A stretch of DNA of 36,446 nt from an uncultured Microbacterium sp. (GTDB lineage: Bacteria > Actinomycetota > Actinomycetes > Actinomycetales > Microbacteriaceae). The notes beneath the pieces are model-generated. The model did not search any database and was not told the origin of the DNA. It saw only the letters and a program-made list of their open reading frames with translations. How positions within the stretch are numbered: position 1 is the first letter of the stretch; each line of letters begins with the position of its first letter. Positions 1 to 10,168 of this stretch are shown piece by piece. The position numbers were made by a program, and so were the translations under genes. The stretch lies in the NCBI GenBank assembly GCA_947647645.1, contig CANSLE010000002.1:1-36446 (forward strand). Direction: 5' to 3'.

Positions 1-1145
1 CCGCTGCCGCGATCGGCATCGACCTCGCCCTCACCCCGTCCGCCGACTCCGCCTCGCCGGCCCCGGCATCCGTCCCCCTCAACGGAGCGGAGATCGTGCC
101 GTTCCACGGCGCGCACCAGGCCGGCATCGACACCGATGCCCAGGCGCACGGCACGTTCGTCGCGCTCGACCTGCGCGCCGACGTCGACCGCGAGGGCCTG
201 CGCCGCCTCATGCGCGTGCTGAGCGACGACGCCGAACGGCTCACCCAGGGCCGGCCCGCGCTCGCCGACTCCGAGCCGGAGCTCGCCGTCGCGCCCGCCC
301 GACTCACCGTGACGTTCGCATTCGGCCCCGGATTCGTCTCGCGCGCGCAGGGCCCCGCGCCGAGCTGGCTGCGCGCACTGCCGGCGTTCGGCATCGATCG
401 CCTCCGCGACGAGTTCAGCCACGGCGACCTGCTGCTGCAGATCGCCGGCGACGACCCGCTGGCGGTCGCGCACACCACGCGGATGCTGCTGAGGGACGCG
501 CGCAGCTTCGCGGAGGTCCGCTGGACGCAGCAGGGGTTCCGCCGCGCCTACGGCACCGTCGCGCCCGGAACCACCATGCGGAACCTCTTCGGCCAGGTCG
601 ACGGCACCGCCAACCCTCGGCCCGGAACCGGCCACTTCGACGAGGTCGTCTGGTCGGATGCCGGCTGGATGGCCGGCGGCACGGGCATGGTGATCCGCCG
701 CATCCACATGGACCTCGACAAATGGGACCGGCTCGACCGTCCCGGCCGCGAGGACTCCGTCGGACGCACCCTCGCGAACGGGGCCCCGCTCACCGGCACG
801 GCCGAGCACGATGAGCCGGACTTCGCCGCGAAGACCACGATCGGCTTTCCCGTCATCCCAGAGTTCTCGCACATGCGACGATCGCGGCCCGACGACACGA
901 GGCAGCGGATCTTCCGCCGCGGCTACAACTACGACGAGCGTCCGGCGGGCGACCAGGTGTCGGATTCGGGCCTGATCTTCGTGTCCTTCCAGGCCGACAT
1001 CGATGCCCAGTTCGTGCCGATCCAGCGCCGCCTGGACGAGCTCGACCTGCTCAACGAGTGGACGACCCCGATCGGCTCGGCGGTGTTCGCCGTCCCGCCC
1101 GGGTGCCAGCCGGGCGGGTACGTCGGGCAGACGCTGCTGGGGTGA
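1..1145 (+). CDS. efeB: DyP-type heme peroxidase, EfeB-like (5' truncated by window)
   Basis: Deferrochelatase/peroxidase of the DyP family, exported by Tat in the EfeUOB iron-uptake system. The reading frame is open from position 3, so the gene begins before the window. The visible N-terminus (AAAIGIDLALTPSADSA) looks like the end of a Tat signal peptide, followed by the VPFHGAHQAGI segment typical of EfeB. The DyP GXXDG motif is present as GQVDG near nt 590-606. The probable heme-binding His is in EFSHMRRS near nt 860-880, followed by QRIFRRGYNYDE and a C-terminal FVPIQRRLDE block, all in the family order. The 380 visible residues suggest about 40-60 are missing. A GTG at 96 is only an internal codon. 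efeU/efeO would be expected upstream but are not visible. Family assignment is secure; iron versus general peroxidase role is inferred. Confidence 0.9.
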   Translation, partial: AAAIGIDLALTPSADSASPAPASVPLNGAEIVPFHGAHQAGIDTDAQAHGTFVALDLRADVDREGLRRLMRVLSDDAERLTQGRPALADSEPELAVAPARLTVTFAFGPGFVSRAQGPAPSWLRALPAFGIDRLRDEFSHGDLLLQIAGDDPLAVAHTTRMLLRDARSFAEVRWTQQGFRRAYGTVAPGTTMRNLFGQVDGTANPRPGTGHFDEVVWSDAGWMAGGTGMVIRRIHMDLDKWDRLDRPGREDSVGRTLANGAPLTGTAEHDEPDFAAKTTIGFPVIPEFSHMRRSRPDDTRQRIFRRGYNYDERPAGDQVSDSGLIFVSFQADIDAQFVPIQRRLDELDLLNEWTTPIGSAVFAVPPGCQPGGYVGQTLLG

Positions 1146-1179
1146 TCGGGCGGCCTCCCTGATCGCCGAGCCGCCACAT

Positions 1180-1221
1180 TACTGAGACGCCACTGAGACG
1201 TGGGGTCTTCCCGTCTCAGTA
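1180..1221 (+). terminator. Inverted repeat after efeB, probable terminator
   Basis: TACTGAGACG (1180-1189) is perfectly complementary to CGTCTCAGTA (1212-1221), giving a 10-bp stem 34 nt after the efeB stop. The left arm is duplicated: ACTGAGACG occurs again at 1192-1200 and can pair with the same right arm as a 9-bp stem with an 11-nt loop. There is no U-tract, which is common for actinobacterial terminators. Confidence 0.55.
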
Positions 1222-1247
1222 CCTCGCCGCGCTTCACGTATCGCTCT

Positions 1248-1259
1248 ACCGAATTCGGT
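1248..1259. promoter_or_regulatory. Perfect 12-bp palindrome ACCGAATTCGGT upstream of SipW cassette
   Basis: ACCGAATTCGGT is a perfect palindrome 100 bp before the first cassette gene. A -10-like TAAGGT lies at 1303-1308, so the palindrome would sit near -60, a position suited to an activator or repressor site. No cognate regulator is encoded nearby. The functional call is inference. Confidence 0.3.
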
Positions 1260-1359
1260 GGGATTCGGCCGCCAAGGGGAACGGACGCGCCGCAGCCCCG
1301 AATAAGGTGTCGACAAGTTGGGCTCGCCTCATGCCCGGCACCTTTCAGGGGGAAGAGAA

Positions 1360-1953
1360 ATGACCGAATCGCACGAGACCGCCTCACGTCGTCGCGAACC
1401 GCGCAGGAAAGCGCGCGCGAAGGGTGTCCTGGCCATCGCGGCCGGAGCAGCTCTGCTCCTCGGAGGCGGCTACACCTACGCCTACTGGTCGACCTCGGCC
1501 GCGATCAGCAGCTCTGCCGTTCAGGCCGGCGATCTGAACCTCACGCTCGGCACCGGGACGTGGACTCTCGACGGCGCCGTCACGGATCCCACGCAGATCA
1601 CCGGTTCGCTCAGCGCTGTGCACGTGGTGCCGGGAGACGTGTTGACTCTGACACAGCCGGTGACCGTCACCCTCGTCGGAGACACGATCGCCGCCGACCT
1701 GTCCACGAGCATCGACTCTGCGATCCCGACCGATCTCGCCCCCTACGTCACCGTCGGCTTCTCGGCCACCGGTTTCGGGACGGCGCAGTCGAACTCCTCG
1801 TACCGCGTCACGCCGGCGACGGGCAACGGTCCGATCGAAGGCACGGCGACCGTGACGATCACCTTCTCGGGTACCACGCCGGCCCGCGTGGGCGTCACGC
1901 AGACGATCAACCTCGACAAGGTGTCCTTGACCCTCACACAGGCGGCCTCCTGA
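1360..1953 (+). CDS. SipW-dependent exported protein with alternate-type signal peptide (cargo 1)
   Basis: 197-aa protein. A basic N-terminus (RRREPRRKARAKG) leads into a hydrophobic stretch ending GGGYTYAYWSTSAA, the alternate-type signal peptide whose YAYW/SxA end is recognised by SipW-like peptidases. The mature part is a Thr/Ser/Val-rich beta protein of about 150 residues, resembling TasA/camelysin-like matrix proteins in composition; I cannot assign a domain beyond that. ATG at 1360 is chosen because AGGGGGAAGAG lies just before it and the signal peptide begins there; upstream in-frame extension to 1318 would bury the signal. It is the first gene of a four-gene cassette ending in its likely peptidase. 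By analogy with tapA-sipW-tasA it may form a surface or matrix component, which is inference. Confidence 0.8.
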   Translation: MTESHETASRRREPRRKARAKGVLAIAAGAALLLGGGYTYAYWSTSAAISSSAVQAGDLNLTLGTGTWTLDGAVTDPTQITGSLSAVHVVPGDVLTLTQPVTVTLVGDTIAADLSTSIDSAIPTDLAPYVTVGFSATGFGTAQSNSSYRVTPATGNGPIEGTATVTITFSGTTPARVGVTQTINLDKVSLTLTQAAS

Positions 1954-1969
1954 GCGTCGCGGTGCGACC

Positions 1970-2503
1970 ATGGCGCCACCGCAGCGAAAGAGCCGGATGC
2001 GCACTGCCCGAGTCGGCGGCATCCTCGGCGTGGCGCTCGCTCTCTTCGCCGGGGCTCTGACCGCGAACGCCTTCTGGGGCGTGCAGCGAGACATCCCGGT
2101 GTCCGCGACGACGACGGGAGACCTCTCGGTGTCCGCGACGTGGAACGGGGCTCCGCCGAGTTGGACCGACGCGATGCCGGGATCCAGCTCCACGACCGCG
2201 ACACTGCGCATCGTCGTCGGTGCGAAGGGGGACACCCTGCGCTGGGCGCTGAAGGTGCAATTGGGGGTGGCGTCCGAGTTCGCCGACTGGGTCACGATGA
2301 CCGCTCGGGCCGGAGACTGCAGCACCGGCGCGATGGTGCCGTCGACGGGCGCTGGCTATGTTCCACCTCAGGGAGGGTCGGCGCCCGGCGGCACCGTCGA
2401 CGTATGCGTACGGTTGTCGCTGAGCGCGAATGCTCCCTCGACGCTGGCTGGCAGACAGATCTCGCCGACGGTGACGGCGATCGTCGAGCAGCGGAGTGAG
2501 TGA
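1970..2503 (+). CDS. SipW-type exported protein (cargo 2)
   Basis: 177-aa protein. Residues 1-15 are basic, followed by a hydrophobic run VGGILGVALALFAGALTANAFW. It ends in an aromatic-W junction like cargo 1 (AFW here, AYW there), then a Thr/Ser-rich beta domain with two cysteine-containing turns (GDCSTG and VDVCVR) that could form a disulfide. It starts 16 nt after cargo 1. The ATG at 1970 has a weak ribosome site; an in-frame ATG at 1997 (SRMRTARVGG) is a credible alternative and keeps the signal peptide intact. The stop codon shares one base with the next ATG (TGATG), suggesting translational coupling. No enzymatic motif is visible; the function is unknown apart from export. Confidence 0.72.
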   Translation: MAPPQRKSRMRTARVGGILGVALALFAGALTANAFWGVQRDIPVSATTTGDLSVSATWNGAPPSWTDAMPGSSSTTATLRIVVGAKGDTLRWALKVQLGVASEFADWVTMTARAGDCSTGAMVPSTGAGYVPPQGGSAPGGTVDVCVRLSLSANAPSTLAGRQISPTVTAIVEQRSE

Positions 2504-2976
2504 TGACCGCGAAACGCCGTTCCCGCACGCCGTTCTCCGTCGGCGCGTTCCTCATCGGCGCCCTCGTGGGCGGGATGCCGCTCGCCGCGGTCGCCTACTG
2601 GAGCGCCGCATCGGCCGCCCCCGCGTTCTCGGCATCGACGGCGACTCTTCCCGTGCCGAGCCTGTCGTGCAGTTCGCAGTCCGGCTTCCTCGGCCTCACT
2701 CCCTATGCGCGATTCACGTGGACGACGAACGCCGGCGCCACGAGCTACACCGTCACCGCGCGCAACGATGCGAGTCCACCGGCAACCACGACCAGCGAGG
2801 TGAGCGGGCCACCCTTCGACCTGCGTGGCAGTCTCCTCTCGGGCCTCGCGGGCACCTTCCACGTGAGCGTCGTCGCCCACTACGGCACGTGGACGTCCGC
2901 ATCGAGCACCTCCGCCGCGGTGGTGCCGTCCGACCCGCTCCTCGGGTTCCTGTTGGGCGGGACGAAGTGTCAATGA
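2503..2976 (+). CDS. SipW-type exported protein (cargo 3), Fn3/Ig-like
   Basis: 157-aa protein. The signal segment ends GGMPLAAVAYWSAASAAPAF, again with a YW junction. The mature region contains an alternating hydrophobic/Thr pattern (YARFTWTTNAGATSYTVTAR) typical of a fibronectin-III or Ig-like beta sandwich, and two cysteines (LSCSSQ and the penultimate residue, TKCQ) that could pair. ATG 2503 is preferred over the overlapping GTG 2500 because it gives one-base coupling to cargo 2. Its own stop overlaps the peptidase start (ATGA). The four genes therefore form one translationally coupled unit. The role is inferred to be a surface or secreted structural protein. Confidence 0.72.
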   Translation: MTAKRRSRTPFSVGAFLIGALVGGMPLAAVAYWSAASAAPAFSASTATLPVPSLSCSSQSGFLGLTPYARFTWTTNAGATSYTVTARNDASPPATTTSEVSGPPFDLRGSLLSGLAGTFHVSVVAHYGTWTSASSTSAAVVPSDPLLGFLLGGTKCQ

Positions 2977-4202
2977 CCGCGGCCGGTCACGGCCTGCGTC
3001 GAGAGCGCCGGACGAGCCGCACGCGGAGGCGGCCGCGGCGCCTGTGGTCGATCGTGACGACTGTCGCGCTCGGCGTTCTCGTCCTTCTGGCGGTGCTGAC
3101 CGTGGGCGTGCCGCTTCTGCTCGGCGCGCAGCCCTACTCCGTGCTCACCGGCAGCATGCGTCCCGGCATCCCCCCGGGCTCCCTCATCGCTGTCCGCGCC
3201 GTGCCGTTCGAGAACATCCGCGTCGGCGACGTCGTGACCTATCAGCTGGAGTCAGGGAGGTCCGCGGTCGTCACGCACCGGGTCGTGGGGCGCAGCGAAG
3301 CCGCAGACGGAGAACGGATGCTGACCACCCGAGGGGACGCGAACGACCTCGCGGACGCCCTCCCCGTCCGTGAGGTGCAGGTGCGCGGCGTCGTGGTCTT
3401 TGCGGTCCCTCTTCTCGGCTATCCGGGCAGCATCCTGAACGGCCCTTCCCGGTCGGGCATCGTCGTCGCCGGCGGCGTCGCCCTGATCCTCTACGGCGTG
3501 TTCGTCCTGACTCGGAGCATGCGCCGGGGCCGGGGCCGCGCGGCCAAGGCCGCCGTCGTCATCGTCGCCGGCGTGATCGCCCCGTGGTCGGCGACCTCCT
3601 CGGCTCCCGCGAGCGCCGCCGCGGCGAACGATCCGCTACGTGTGAGCGCCGACGGCGAGAACTGGGTCACCGACGGATCTGTGGCGATCGTCGACGGGAG
3701 GGTTCGGCTCGCACCCGGCGGTGCGACGACCGGCCAGCTGTGGGTTCGCAACGACAGCCCCGATGCCGCCACCGCGACGCTCGATGTGAGCGCGCGCCCC
3801 GCGACCGAGAGCCCCATCGACGCCGCCGCCGCCGCGGACATGAGGATATCGATCGACGACAGCCCCGTCGGCGCAGGACGAGTCACCGTGTCCGCGCGCA
3901 TCGACGCGGGAGGCGAGCGCCGGTTCGAGATCGAGACCGCACTCGACGAAGAGTCGCAGAACGACTCTCGGCGAGGCACTGTCCTCGTCGCCGCGACCGT
4001 CAACCTGGCTCAGATCGTCGAGCAGGATCCGCCGCCTCGCCCGAGCGACGGAGGCCGGGATGGCGGCCACAGCGCACCCAGCGATGCGCTGCCGGCAACG
4101 GGGGGAGCGTCGCCGCCGTTTGCCCTCATCGCCCTGGGAGGCGCCGGCGCGATCCTCCTCGGCCGCTCGCTCCGCAGGTCTTCGCGCTCGCGCAGAATGT
4201 AG
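2973..4202 (+). CDS. sipW: SipW/ER-type signal peptidase I fused to an LPXTG-anchored beta domain
   Basis: 409-aa membrane protein. Residues 1-182 are a complete ER-type (SipW) signal peptidase: TM1 about 25-50, catalytic Ser61 in LTGSMRPGI, His102 in VVTHRVVG (His instead of the Lys of ordinary SPase I), the TRGDAND box at 119-125 with a probable catalytic Asp, and TM2 about 160-180. Normal SipW proteins end about here. The frame instead continues: basic MRRGRGRAAK from Met183, a hydrophobic segment ending APASAAAA (about 192-218), a beta-rich region of about 150 residues with poly-Ala linkers, a Gly/Pro/Asp-rich stalk, then LPATG at 373-377, a hydrophobic span and a basic tail. That is a textbook sortase sorting signal. 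The second half could also be made alone from ATG 3519, which is in frame but has only a close GGAG before it. The peptidase call is firm; the role of the fused part is unknown. No sortase is in the window. Confidence 0.85.
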   Translation: MTAAGHGLRRERRTSRTRRRPRRLWSIVTTVALGVLVLLAVLTVGVPLLLGAQPYSVLTGSMRPGIPPGSLIAVRAVPFENIRVGDVVTYQLESGRSAVVTHRVVGRSEAADGERMLTTRGDANDLADALPVREVQVRGVVVFAVPLLGYPGSILNGPSRSGIVVAGGVALILYGVFVLTRSMRRGRGRAAKAAVVIVAGVIAPWSATSSAPASAAAANDPLRVSADGENWVTDGSVAIVDGRVRLAPGGATTGQLWVRNDSPDAATATLDVSARPATESPIDAAAAADMRISIDDSPVGAGRVTVSARIDAGGERRFEIETALDEESQNDSRRGTVLVAATVNLAQIVEQDPPPRPSDGGRDGGHSAPSDALPATGGASPPFALIALGGAGAILLGRSLRRSSRSRRM

Positions 4203-4371
4203 CTCTGGCCTGCCGCCATCGGCGACGGACGGCACACCCGGTGGACAGGCCGCAGGAGCCGGCCGACGGTTTTGGGTTGTGGTAGCCGCGCGCGCGGCGA
4301 CGGTACAGGGGCCGCTACGCGCCACAAACGGCCACACGGGGCGCCGAAGCCATGGAAGCCCGTCACGCAGA

Positions 4372-4403
4372 AACCCCCGGCAAGCTCACGCTTACCGGGG
4401 GTT
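4372..4403 (-). terminator. Rho-independent-like terminator of tRNA-Ser
   Basis: AACCCCCGGCAAGC (4372-4385) pairs with GCTTACCGGGGGTT (4390-4403) around a 4-nt loop, one wobble pair, 14-bp stem. On the minus strand it lies 15 nt after the tRNA CCA end and is followed by a short T run (GGGGGTTTC). Confidence 0.8.
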
Positions 4404-4418
4404 CCAACGTGACTCACG

Positions 4419-4509
4419 TGGCGGTGACGGTGGGATTTGAACCCACGGTAGGGGGTTACCCTACACAACTTTTCGAGAGTTGCACCTTCGGCCGCTCGGA
4501 CACGTCACC
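4419..4509 (-). tRNA. tRNA-Ser (anticodon CGA)
   Basis: Read on the minus strand, acceptor GGTGACG pairs with CGTCACC, followed by discriminator G and an encoded CCA (4421-4419). The anticodon arm CAACT-CTCGAAA-AGTTG gives anticodon CGA, decoding UCG. A long variable arm (TGTAGGG.. CCCCCTAC) and the D-arm CCGAGCGG are typical of class II serine tRNAs, and the T-arm GGGTTCAAATCCC is canonical. Length is 88 nt plus CCA. Confidence 0.96.
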
Positions 4510-7137: not shown

Positions 7138-8697
7138 TCACACGGGCGTCGCGAACTCGCGGATCGTGATGCCCGTGAAGGTCGCCGCGCCGCCGTCCGA
7201 GTAGAACGAGATGCCGGTGTCAGTGTCCAGGAAGTGGACCTGCTGCGACAGCACCGTGTGGCCGGCGTTGACGAAGACCTCGACGCTCTGCCGGTCGACG
7301 AAGATCCGCAGGTGGACGGAGCGAGCGGCCGGATCTATCGGAGCCGCGGCACGCGTGTAGGGGACGAGGGAGTATCCGCTGCGATCTGACGGCGCTCGAT
7401 CGACATAGAGATCGGAGCCGTACTTGCCGATGTAGGTGTGTCGGGACCCGTCGGCCGAGCGCCCCACGGAGACGCCGACGTTCGTGGCATCCGTCCAGGC
7501 GATGTCGAGCTCCAGCTCGTACGCGCGCCCGCTCCACGGGAGCACGGCACTGCCGTTCACCGTGCGGTCGGGAAGAGTCACGGTCGACGTGGCGTGTGCC
7601 GCCAACACCGTGATCGGGCTGCTGAGCAGCGTGTATCGCCCGTCGGGCTGGTGCTCGAGACGGAGCTCCCGAACGATGGAGTTCTGCCCGTTATAGCCGT
7701 CGGTCGCGTCGGTGGGGACGTCACGCGCGGCGTACTTCCAGTTGTTCATCCACGCGATGGCGAGTCGCCGCGTGGTGGGGGCCTCGATGGTCGGCCACGT
7801 CACCGCGGCGTACCAGTCCCACCCCCAGTCCAGCCACTGCGGGGTGAGGTCGTCCGCGAGAAAGTGCGTGCCGTCCCAGGTGCCCGTCCAGTACGCGTAG
7901 GTCATCGGGAGGCCGACACCGTACGCGTCCATGCTCGCCCCGATGACCCAGTGGTTCGTGCCGTCACCGGCCGTCATCTGGAAGATATCGGGGCATTCGA
8001 TACCGCCGAGGTCGTGGTTCGGGTAGTCGAAGTTGCTCCGCCACGTCCAGTTCCGCAGGTCGGGCGACGTGAAGATGCCGGCGTACCGCGCGCGCCCGAG
8101 GATCAGGACCCATTCGCTGCGCCCCGCGTCCCAGTGCACCTTCGGATCGCGGCACCACTCGGCGTTATCGATCTCGGCGGGGGTCTGCGCAGTGCGGCCG
8201 TCGTTGTTGATGAGCACGGGGTCGGGCAGCATCGTGAAGCTGAACCCGCCGTCTGTCGACCAGTACAGGTACTGCTCCTGGTACTTGCGGATGTTGTCCG
8301 TGGGACGCGTGGCGAGCGCAATCACCGCGCCGGCACCGAACCCCGCCGTATTGGCCGTGTCGACGACGAGGCATCCCGACCAGACGGGCACGCCCCCGGA
8401 AATCGGCATCACGGTGCCGTGATGTGTGAAGCTCACGCCGTCCGTGGTCGCGTGATCCCACCCGCCCGGGCCGTTGTTGATGTTCGAATGCAAGTAATAG
8501 AGCTGGTACTGCCCACCAGAGACGATCGGGCGCTGCGGATCGCAGAGCCAGGCTGTCGGCGGGGTCATGTGGTAGAGGGCACGCTGCGACACGGTGACGG
8601 CGCGGGCTCCCGCGGGGACCGCGGCCGCGAGAGCAAGGCCGAAGGCCCCGGCTCCTGCGCCCTGCAACAGGGTGCGACGGGAGATCTCGAATGACAT
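7138..8697 (-). CDS. Tat-secreted GH32 fructan hydrolase (levanase/inulinase-like)
   Basis: 519-aa secreted glycoside hydrolase of family 32. The N-terminus MSFEISRRTLLQGAGAG has the twin-arginine SRRTLLQ motif, a hydrophobic region and an AGARA cleavage site. The beta-propeller carries the nucleophile Asp53 in WLCDPQRP (a WMNDPNG variant of the levanase type), the transition-state Asp184 in CRDPK, and acid/base Glu234 in GIECPD. The C-terminal about 150 residues form the usual beta-sandwich (RIFVDRQSVEVFVNAGH). GTG 8706 is in frame, but the AGGAAG ribosome site abuts it and is well spaced (8 nt) from ATG 8697, so the latter is chosen. It is the last gene of the operon, after cytoplasmic GH32, and probably attacks polymeric levan or inulin outside the cell. 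The exact linkage preference (beta-2,6 or beta-2,1) is not readable. Confidence 0.9.
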   Translation of the reverse strand: MSFEISRRTLLQGAGAGAFGLALAAAVPAGARAVTVSQRALYHMTPPTAWLCDPQRPIVSGGQYQLYYLHSNINNGPGGWDHATTDGVSFTHHGTVMPISGGVPVWSGCLVVDTANTAGFGAGAVIALATRPTDNIRKYQEQYLYWSTDGGFSFTMLPDPVLINNDGRTAQTPAEIDNAEWCRDPKVHWDAGRSEWVLILGRARYAGIFTSPDLRNWTWRSNFDYPNHDLGGIECPDIFQMTAGDGTNHWVIGASMDAYGVGLPMTYAYWTGTWDGTHFLADDLTPQWLDWGWDWYAAVTWPTIEAPTTRRLAIAWMNNWKYAARDVPTDATDGYNGQNSIVRELRLEHQPDGRYTLLSSPITVLAAHATSTVTLPDRTVNGSAVLPWSGRAYELELDIAWTDATNVGVSVGRSADGSRHTYIGKYGSDLYVDRAPSDRSGYSLVPYTRAAAPIDPAARSVHLRIFVDRQSVEVFVNAGHTVLSQQVHFLDTDTGISFYSDGGAATFTGITIREFATPV

Positions 8698-8738
8698 GAT
8701 GCTCACTTCCTCGTTCGGTGGCGGGCGCGACGAACCGC

Positions 8739-8757
8739 CCGCCGGGTACCCCGGCGG
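8739..8757 (-). terminator. Intra-operon GC hairpin between two GH32 genes
   Basis: CCGCCGGG (8739-8746) and CCCGGCGG (8750-8757) make an 8-bp stem with a 3-nt loop in the 76-nt gap between the two GH32 genes. No U-tract; it may attenuate or protect mRNA rather than terminate fully. Confidence 0.4.
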
Positions 8758-8773
8758 TGAGAGGGGATTCGGA

Positions 8774-10168
8774 TCAGACGGTCACCGGAACCGCCCGACC
8801 TTTCTGGACGACGCCGTCGGAGACGACGAGGCGCACCGTGGGAGCACCCATCCCGGTCTCAACGTGAGCCGACACGGTCACGGGGGCTGAGCCGAGGGTC
8901 ACGAGGTGCGAGAGCACGGTCGCGCCGTCGTCGGCGAAGATCTCGAGGAGCGGTCCGTCGAGGATCGCCGTGAGGACGCCGGCCTGGCCGTCGAAGAGCG
9001 GAGCGACCCGGGTGCCCGCGAAGTCGGGGTGGAGGGAGCGGGCGGCAGACCCGTCCCTCGACACGGACAGGGTGCCCGCGGCGGGGTCGTGGACGACGTC
9101 GACCCTGGCATCCCTCTCCCCCTCGAGGGTGAGCCGCAGGGCGCCGGTCGCCGACGGGTCCCACCGGACGTCCACCAGAACGTGCGGCTCGACCGTGACC
9201 GGAGCCTCGACCGCGTCAGCACGATCGCCACCGAGATCGACCCACGGCCGTTGCACGAGACGCAACTCGCCGTCGACGTCACGGAGTCCGAGGGTGTGCG
9301 GGATCGACATCGCGCCCCGCCACGGCGACGTCGGGACGACGTGGGCGTAGCGCCAGTTGCTCATCCAGGCGAGCATGACCGCCGCTCCGTCGGGCGCACC
9401 GTGGAAGGTCACGCCGGCGTACAGGTCGCGACCGTGATCGAGGGGCACGAGGGCGTCGTGATCGGCCCGGAACGCGCCGTCGATGAGGTCGCCGACCGCG
9501 TAGTGCATCGCGGAACCGGCGGGGTCGGAATCCTCCCCGACGGGGTTCGTGCTCAGCAGCAACACCCAGCGCTGACGGCCGGGCCGCCCTTCCACCGGAA
9601 GAAGAACGAGGTCGGGGCACTCCCACACCACGCCGTCCACACCGATCGGGCCGAACGATCCGGACTCCCGCCACGAGAGCAGGTCGTCGGAAGCGTAGAA
9701 CACCACGCGTCGCTCGACCGCTTCGACGGTCAGCATGAGCCATCCGCCGTGCGGCAGCCGCACCACCTTGGGGTCACGGAAGTCGGAGCTCGCCCGATCG
9801 ATCACCGGATTGGCAGCATCCGGAATCCAGGTCTCGCCGCCGTCGGCGCTCGTCGCACGGGACTGCGCCTGGATGCCGTGGGCGTAGACACTCGTGTAGA
9901 AGGCCGTCAGTCTCCCGTCCGGCTCGATGACGGTGGACCCCGAGTAGATCTGCTCACCCGGTCGGTGCCGCAGGGCGACGTGATGCTCTTCCCACTGCAG
10001 AAGGTCGCGGCTGGACGCGTGGCCCCAGCTCATGTTCCCCCAGTCGTTCCCCTCGGGGTTGTACTGGAAGAAGGCGTGCCAGCGACCGTCGACGAAGACG
10101 AGACCGTTGGGGTCGTTCATCCAATTGCGGACGGGGGCGAGGTGGAACCGCGGACGGGGAAGGTTCAC
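8774..10168 (-). CDS. Cytoplasmic GH32 beta-fructosidase
   Basis: 464-aa GH32 enzyme with no signal peptide, so it should hydrolyse imported fructo-oligosaccharides or sucrose in the cytoplasm. Nucleophile Asp19 is in the canonical NWMNDPNG, the transition-state stabiliser Asp132 in FRDPKV, and acid/base Glu183 in WECPDL. QYNPEGNDWGNMSWGHASS is the second conserved block. The C-terminal third is the beta-sandwich module. GTG 10168 is chosen because it overlaps the LacI stop (GTGA) and directly precedes NLPRPRFHLAP, the normal GH32 N-terminus. It follows the regulator and precedes the secreted GH32. Whether it acts as sucrase or exo-fructanase is not determinable here. Confidence 0.93.
   Translation of the reverse strand: MNLPRPRFHLAPVRNWMNDPNGLVFVDGRWHAFFQYNPEGNDWGNMSWGHASSRDLLQWEEHHVALRHRPGEQIYSGSTVIEPDGRLTAFYTSVYAHGIQAQSRATSADGGETWIPDAANPVIDRASSDFRDPKVVRLPHGGWLMLTVEAVERRVVFYASDDLLSWRESGSFGPIGVDGVVWECPDLVLLPVEGRPGRQRWVLLLSTNPVGEDSDPAGSAMHYAVGDLIDGAFRADHDALVPLDHGRDLYAGVTFHGAPDGAAVMLAWMSNWRYAHVVPTSPWRGAMSIPHTLGLRDVDGELRLVQRPWVDLGGDRADAVEAPVTVEPHVLVDVRWDPSATGALRLTLEGERDARVDVVHDPAAGTLSVSRDGSAARSLHPDFAGTRVAPLFDGQAGVLTAILDGPLLEIFADDGATVLSHLVTLGSAPVTVSAHVETGMGAPTVRLVVSDGVVQKGRAVPVTV

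Follow-up and report, generated by a model that had tools for sequence, protein, structure and literature searches.

Fusion of a SipW-type peptidase to a TasA-like protein

The DNA analyzed here (the window, 36,446 nucleotides from an uncultured Microbacterium sp.; assembly GCA_947647645.1, contig CANSLE010000002.1) includes a gene, at nucleotides 2973 to 4202 of the plus strand, in which a SipW-type signal peptidase is followed in the same frame by a second signal segment, a TasA-like domain and an LPATG anchor. This gene is a merged pair of neighboring genes that has been inherited as such, and mergers of this kind have arisen at least twice. We lean toward the view that it is a natural fusion of SipW and a TasA-superfamily LPxTG protein, encoding a precursor of two proteins: the SipW peptidase and, as the base of a fiber composed of the products of three upstream genes, S1 to S3, a TasA-like protein anchored by sortase. 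The assembly of the source genome is 81% complete and consists of 374 contigs.

The frame translates to 409 stop-free residues, in agreement with an earlier interpretation made from the letters of the DNA (the sequence-only reading), which had described a peptidase continuous with an LPXTG-anchored domain. Residues 1 to 182 (nucleotides 2973 to 3518) scored 83.4 bits against TIGR02228 (signal peptidase I, archaeal/endoplasmic reticulum (ER) type; cut-off, 51.85) and match human SEC11 chains in the PDB (1.9e-7). Ser61 (codon 3153-3155), His102 in place of Lys (3276-3278) and Asp122 of the GDAND box (3336-3338), which the same reading had singled out, are present and invariant across the 15 fused Microbacterium sequences described below. 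The score against the Bacillus SipW equivalog model NF046067 was 76.6 bits, below its cut-off of 190. By its sequence, the peptidase half (N) is a SipW-like, S26-type member of the ER-type/archaeal signal peptidase I family, and it is predicted to cleave the substrates encoded in its own operon.

The second half (C) opens with a signal-peptide-like segment (nucleotides 3519 to 3617) comprising a predicted basic cytosolic loop, a third transmembrane span (TM3, about residues 190 to 207) and an AxA site at residues 213 to 215 (APASA). A hydrophobic region and an AxA-type site are found in the fused homologs, and a helix at residues 190 to 207 is present in a low-confidence model. The sequence-only reading was correct as to the existence of this segment and incorrect in making it start at Met183, a residue located in the basic loop that precedes it. 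The segment is followed by a beta-domain (3627 to 4028), a short linker rich in Pro, Gly, Ser and Asp (4029 to 4088), and a putative sorting signal (4089 to 4199) in which LPATG, at residues 373 to 377, precedes a hydrophobic span (TM4) and the basic tail RRSSRSRR.

Conservation and origin of the fusion

When 369 Microbacterium genomes were searched with the C half and the loci were then read, 14 genomes besides the source proved to have this single-frame fusion, with 39-46% identity across the whole length. Among them are records of M. testaceum (NBRC 12675, StLB037, TPD7010 and DE0422), M. hydrothermale and several uncultured bins. All 15 fused sequences align end to end and have LxxTG at the end; because of this conservation in 14 further genomes the frame is not a chance product of high G+C content. 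The two halves lie on two contig ends in the genome G044, where the state of the fusion could not be judged. No plasmid-borne copies covering 80% of the query were found. Microbacterium loci in which C is a separate gene, which were added by a profile search, have SipW followed by C in about five cases, C followed by SipW in about fifteen, and an intervening gene in two. Wherever an inspected Microbacterium locus had a full-length match to the C domain and lay on a sufficiently long contig, a SipW gene was found within about 3 kb.

The closest relative, G346, is about 80% identical to the window in the DNA of the operon and has one extra base at the AxA site that breaks the frame. The frame downstream of the break is still well conserved (67% identity; ratio of nonsynonymous to synonymous substitution rates, dN/dS, of 0.51 versus the window), and therefore the break either occurred recently or reflects a sequencing error; that it is not ancestral is evident from the intact fusions. 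Thus a frameshift in close relatives, which the sequence-only reading had named as a finding that would refute it, occurs in one genome, exactly at the junction, and does not represent the original condition. The dN/dS values between the window and G346 (0.32 for the peptidase and 0.51 for the domain) indicate that both halves are under purifying selection.

GTDB genomes were scanned with the alignment of the fusions, and the best 80 named loci were classified. Twelve of them are fused, 11 belonging to the same Microbacterium clade (some filed merely as uncultured Actinomycetes) and one to Myceligenerans salitolerans, while in 42 the C gene is separate and at most 3 kb from SipW. This count covers the check proposed in the sequence-only reading, of how often the halves are fused or adjacent; the combined figure of 54/80 describes SipW loci similar to that of the window and is no general frequency, the query having been selected for peptidase motifs. 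Full C-domain matches were rare in a 397-genome sample across Actinomycetota. In other members of this phylum, a free-standing gene next to SipW usually encodes the second half, complete with a signal peptide and an LxxTG anchor; Cellulomonas and Cellulosimicrobium, where C is likewise a gene of its own, retain the order S1-S2-S3-SipW-C. In 12/12 SipW-C pairs examined the start codon of C overlaps the SipW stop codon by 4 bases, so that a small insertion or deletion near the junction is enough to join the genes.

A tree built from the peptidase halves places the 15 Microbacterium fusions in one group together with the frameshifted G346 and the contig-truncated G044 (Shimodaira-Hasegawa-like approximate likelihood ratio test support, 91); this group falls within a broader one (93) that also contains Cellulomonas, Cellulosimicrobium and Arthrobacter. 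The Myceligenerans fusion is placed elsewhere, paired with an unfused N-C locus (89), and therefore there were at least two fusion events. Of the explanations given in the sequence-only reading, that of two genes fused in frame was the one borne out: the fusion is an inherited trait of one Microbacterium clade, with a separate case in Myceligenerans, and no annotation slip. A fusion formed on two or more occasions is good evidence of cooperation, and it suggests that the peptidase and the probable wall-anchored protein work together.

Other arrangements were observed during this survey. Loci of Nocardioides, Aeromicrobium, Glutamicibacter and others (L154, L163, L176, L180, L186, L199 and similar) have the order S1-SipW1-C-S2-SipW2(-S3), and the automatic label C-N often stands for SipW1-C-S2-SipW2 with a divergent second SipW. 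These loci hold two divergent SipW-like peptidases per operon, perhaps with different substrates. The source genome has a second SipW locus (L002:33-1379; G000:C30:2651-3994) that encodes a 448-amino acid single-frame protein consisting of a signal peptide, a domain, LAATG with a transmembrane span and RR, followed by a SipW-type core (SWAMFTD) ahead of a TasA-like domain. This protein is found in one frame in one other Microbacterium (G267), with 62% identity.

Upstream genes and nature of the C-terminal domain

Three genes precede the fusion on the plus strand. S1 (1360 to 1953) encodes a SipW-dependent secreted protein with an alternate-type signal peptide (...TYAYWS); it matches TIGR04089 (exp_by_SipW_III) with 108.8 bits (cut-off, 60) and is the sole match to this model in the source genome. 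S2 (1970 to 2503) encodes a second SipW-type secreted beta-protein (...TANAFWG) that is a profile relative of S1 (HHalign, 98.7%) and occupies the same place in relatives. S3 (2500 to 2976), which overlaps S2 and the fusion gene by 4 bases each, encodes a third SipW-type secreted protein in which the signal core is followed by AVAYWS; its position ahead of SipW is conserved in the fused loci and also in Cellulomonas and Cellulosimicrobium.

The C domain was compared with these products by HHalign, which aligned it to S1 with 95.4% probability (2e-8, 120 columns) and to S2 with 96.8% (3e-10, 103 columns); these E-values are pairwise and are to be read alongside the S3 control, which gave 0.7% and ruled out S3 as a relative of the domain. 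At the profile level, then, the C domain is distantly related to the operon's own predicted SipW substrates S1 and S2. TIGR04090 matched, weakly, one of 25 relatives of the C half. A profile search of the PDB recovered chiefly the anchor segments of other LPXTG proteins, and a fold search was used in its place. The AlphaFold model of the beta-domain, built from 47 sequences, has a predicted local distance difference test (pLDDT) score of 89.1, and its Foldseek matches include the PapG pilin, FimG, CFA/I, the Pyrobaculum bundling pilus 7ueg and the TasA fiber 8aur, the last with a query TM-score (TMq) of 0.51 and an E-value of 8.7e-3; the other pilin matches are similar. The C half appears to be a TasA-like surface protein that resembles donor-strand pilins only moderately.

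Signals, and predicted processing and anchoring

Using a wide definition of the SipW-type motif (small-x-Trp type after the hydrophobic core), set after inspection of the S1-S3 signals, the motif was found in 114/118 S1, 101/111 S2 and 39/50 S3 proteins, and in none of 78 C proteins. An AxA site is present in 76/84 C proteins and, of 79 C-domain frames, 67 have LxxTG downstream of the domain. Also present in the source genome are a gene for an ordinary signal peptidase I and three matches to sortases that exceed the cut-off. The anchor models PF00746 and TIGR01167 match 13 and 16, respectively, of 25 C-half relatives at E <= 0.1, the window member not being among them; this member has the LPxTG, hydrophobic span and basic tail characteristic of sortase substrates. 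With three sortase matches in the genome, its predicted attachment to the wall is plausible. Given the lack of a SipW-type motif, the AxA site, and the genome's own signal peptidase I and sortases, the most economical reading is therefore that the second signal would be cut by signal peptidase I and the protein anchored by sortase. From these features the ordinary enzyme appears a likelier processor of the second signal than the SipW half itself.

Proposed mechanism and alternatives

In the scheme that we propose, the fusion protein would be inserted through four spans with its N terminus inside: TM1, the catalytic domain outside, TM2, the basic loop inside, TM3, the beta-domain outside, and the LPATG-TM4-basic tail. 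The peptidase half would trim the SipW-type signals of S1 to S3, ordinary signal peptidase I (LepB) would cleave at the AxA site, with TM3 serving as an internal signal peptide, and a sortase would attach the protein to the wall through its LPATG end. Fixed there, the domain would form the base, or anchor, of a donor-strand-type fiber resembling that of TasA and made of S1 and S2 and possibly S3. Its role, exerted through sortase, may be roughly that of TapA for TasA in Bacillus subtilis, an analogy of function drawn without sequence comparison to TapA. We regard the operon as a probable surface-fiber operon.

Several observations weigh against this scheme. The G346 frameshift, if real, would leave the C half of that genome without export, and the junction has a dN/dS of about 0.9 between the window and G346, over 31 codons only. 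Immunoglobulin-like beta-sandwiches are common, and the likeness of the domain to the named pilins is moderate (TMq 0.42-0.51, with one match only at E < 0.001). No convincing Pfam or NCBIfam match, including PF12389, TIGR04089 and TIGR04090, was obtained for the C half of the window. The topology rests on sequence because the full-length AlphaFold model is poor (predicted TM-score, 0.36), and interdomain contacts are not judgeable from it. We know of no experiment showing S1-S3 fibers in Actinomycetota.

The halves could instead stay joined, with TM3 uncut and the C end fixed by sortase, so that the peptidase would be tethered from membrane to wall as a platform for fiber assembly. In favor of this arrangement are the retention of the fusion in 15 genomes, the fact that within the clade the halves are split in G346 alone, through a frameshift, and spans and positive-inside charges that fit it; we nevertheless hold it to be unlikely, since the junction retains AxA-type sites preceded by a helix breaker, unfused relatives use the equivalent segment as an ordinary cleaved-type signal, and the genome has a signal peptidase I able to cut. 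Somewhat more doubtful still is a one-piece bridge acting as a single machine of peptidase and initiator, in which a sortase-held peptidase at the fiber base would free substrates beside a wall-fixed TasA-like domain that seeds donor-strand polymerization. Release of the C half by the SipW half, which the sequence-only reading had placed at APASAAAA, would be favored by the intact catalytic residues and by the prediction of active site and cleavage site (APASA) on the same face of the membrane. This idea is weakened to the point of being improbable: the neighboring substrates have the SipW-type motif that the second signal and all other examined family members lack, unfused C proteins bear the same canonical-looking site, and an ordinary signal peptidase I is available.

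Separate translation of the C half from ATG 3519, also suggested by that reading, or from a nearby GTG deserves very little credence. The ATG does stand ahead of the signal-like segment, but Met183 is not conserved, two of the 15 fused genes (L091 and L095) have no ATG, GTG or TTG in the 60 codons before the domain, and no conserved Shine-Dalgarno sequence was found, three Shine-Dalgarno-like strings preceding non-conserved GTGs. Chance read-through, assembly error or a decaying gene, to which the one-base junction frameshift of the closest relative might point, can be practically dismissed in view of the full-length conservation in 15 genomes, isolates among them, the purifying selection on both halves and the second, independent fusion in Myceligenerans. 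As an explanation of the fusion as such, chance or error is already refuted by the conserved full-length relatives.

Relation to known systems

Division of the precursor into a peptidase and an anchored base protein, the reading that we prefer, invites comparison with the tapA-sipW-tasA operon of B. subtilis. There, tapA and sipW overlap at their stop and start codons, and TapA has been described as initiating filaments by donation of its N-terminal strand and as confined to the beginning of the filament (PMC10151520). Both systems encode an ER-type signal peptidase beside secreted beta-proteins that it processes or, here, is predicted to process, both have a stop/start overlap, and in both a member of the operon may start the filament, by analogy in the present case. 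The Microbacterium operon differs in having three SipW-type substrates and a presumed base protein with a canonical signal and LPxTG that is fused to the peptidase. With TasA/camelysin fibers and archaeal bundling pili it shares the profile relationship of the C domain to SipW substrates and the Foldseek matches 8aur and 7ueg; unlike TasA/camelysin proteins, the C domain lacks a SipW-type signal peptide and a direct Pfam match and carries a putative sortase anchor. Bacillus TasA systems have been described as sortase-independent (PMC13082335). The LPATG, hydrophobic span and basic tail, together with sortases in the genome, are shared with LPXTG surface proteins and basal pilins, from which the fusion differs in the predicted route of its domain to the membrane, by way of an internal signal segment that follows a polytopic peptidase. 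Streptococcus pyogenes SipA, a signal-peptidase-like pilus assembly factor (PMC4049620), is likewise encoded in a surface-fiber operon; here, by contrast, the Ser-His-Asp set is intact and of the ER type.

A search of a literature library found no description of actinobacterial SipW operons, and its matches included no paper on Microbacterium and SipW and none on a signal-peptidase/LPXTG fusion. The fusion is of value chiefly because it provides evidence that the actinobacterial SipW system includes a sortase-anchored TasA-like protein. By tying these operons to a sortase-anchored partner it predicts TasA-like fibers covalently fixed to the wall, and the way in which the many Actinomycetota with SipW loci might retain such fibers on their surface is testable through one gene in culturable M. 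testaceum strains.

Surroundings of the operon

In the window the operon is flanked by a DyP peroxidase gene and tRNA-Ser(CGA) (window 96-4509), while many fused loci (L092, L094, L095, L097 and L099-L104) have a tRNA-Gly(TCC)/tRNA-Pro(TGG) pair at a distance of no more than a few kb. G346 has only the operon in common with the window locus, and together these differing surroundings suggest that the operon has moved. A promoter scan gave nothing exceeding chance. Further downstream, on the minus strand at window 7138-10168, two adjoining frames have translations that appear GH32-like (fructan/sucrose-cleaving), one of them with a Tat-like signal peptide.
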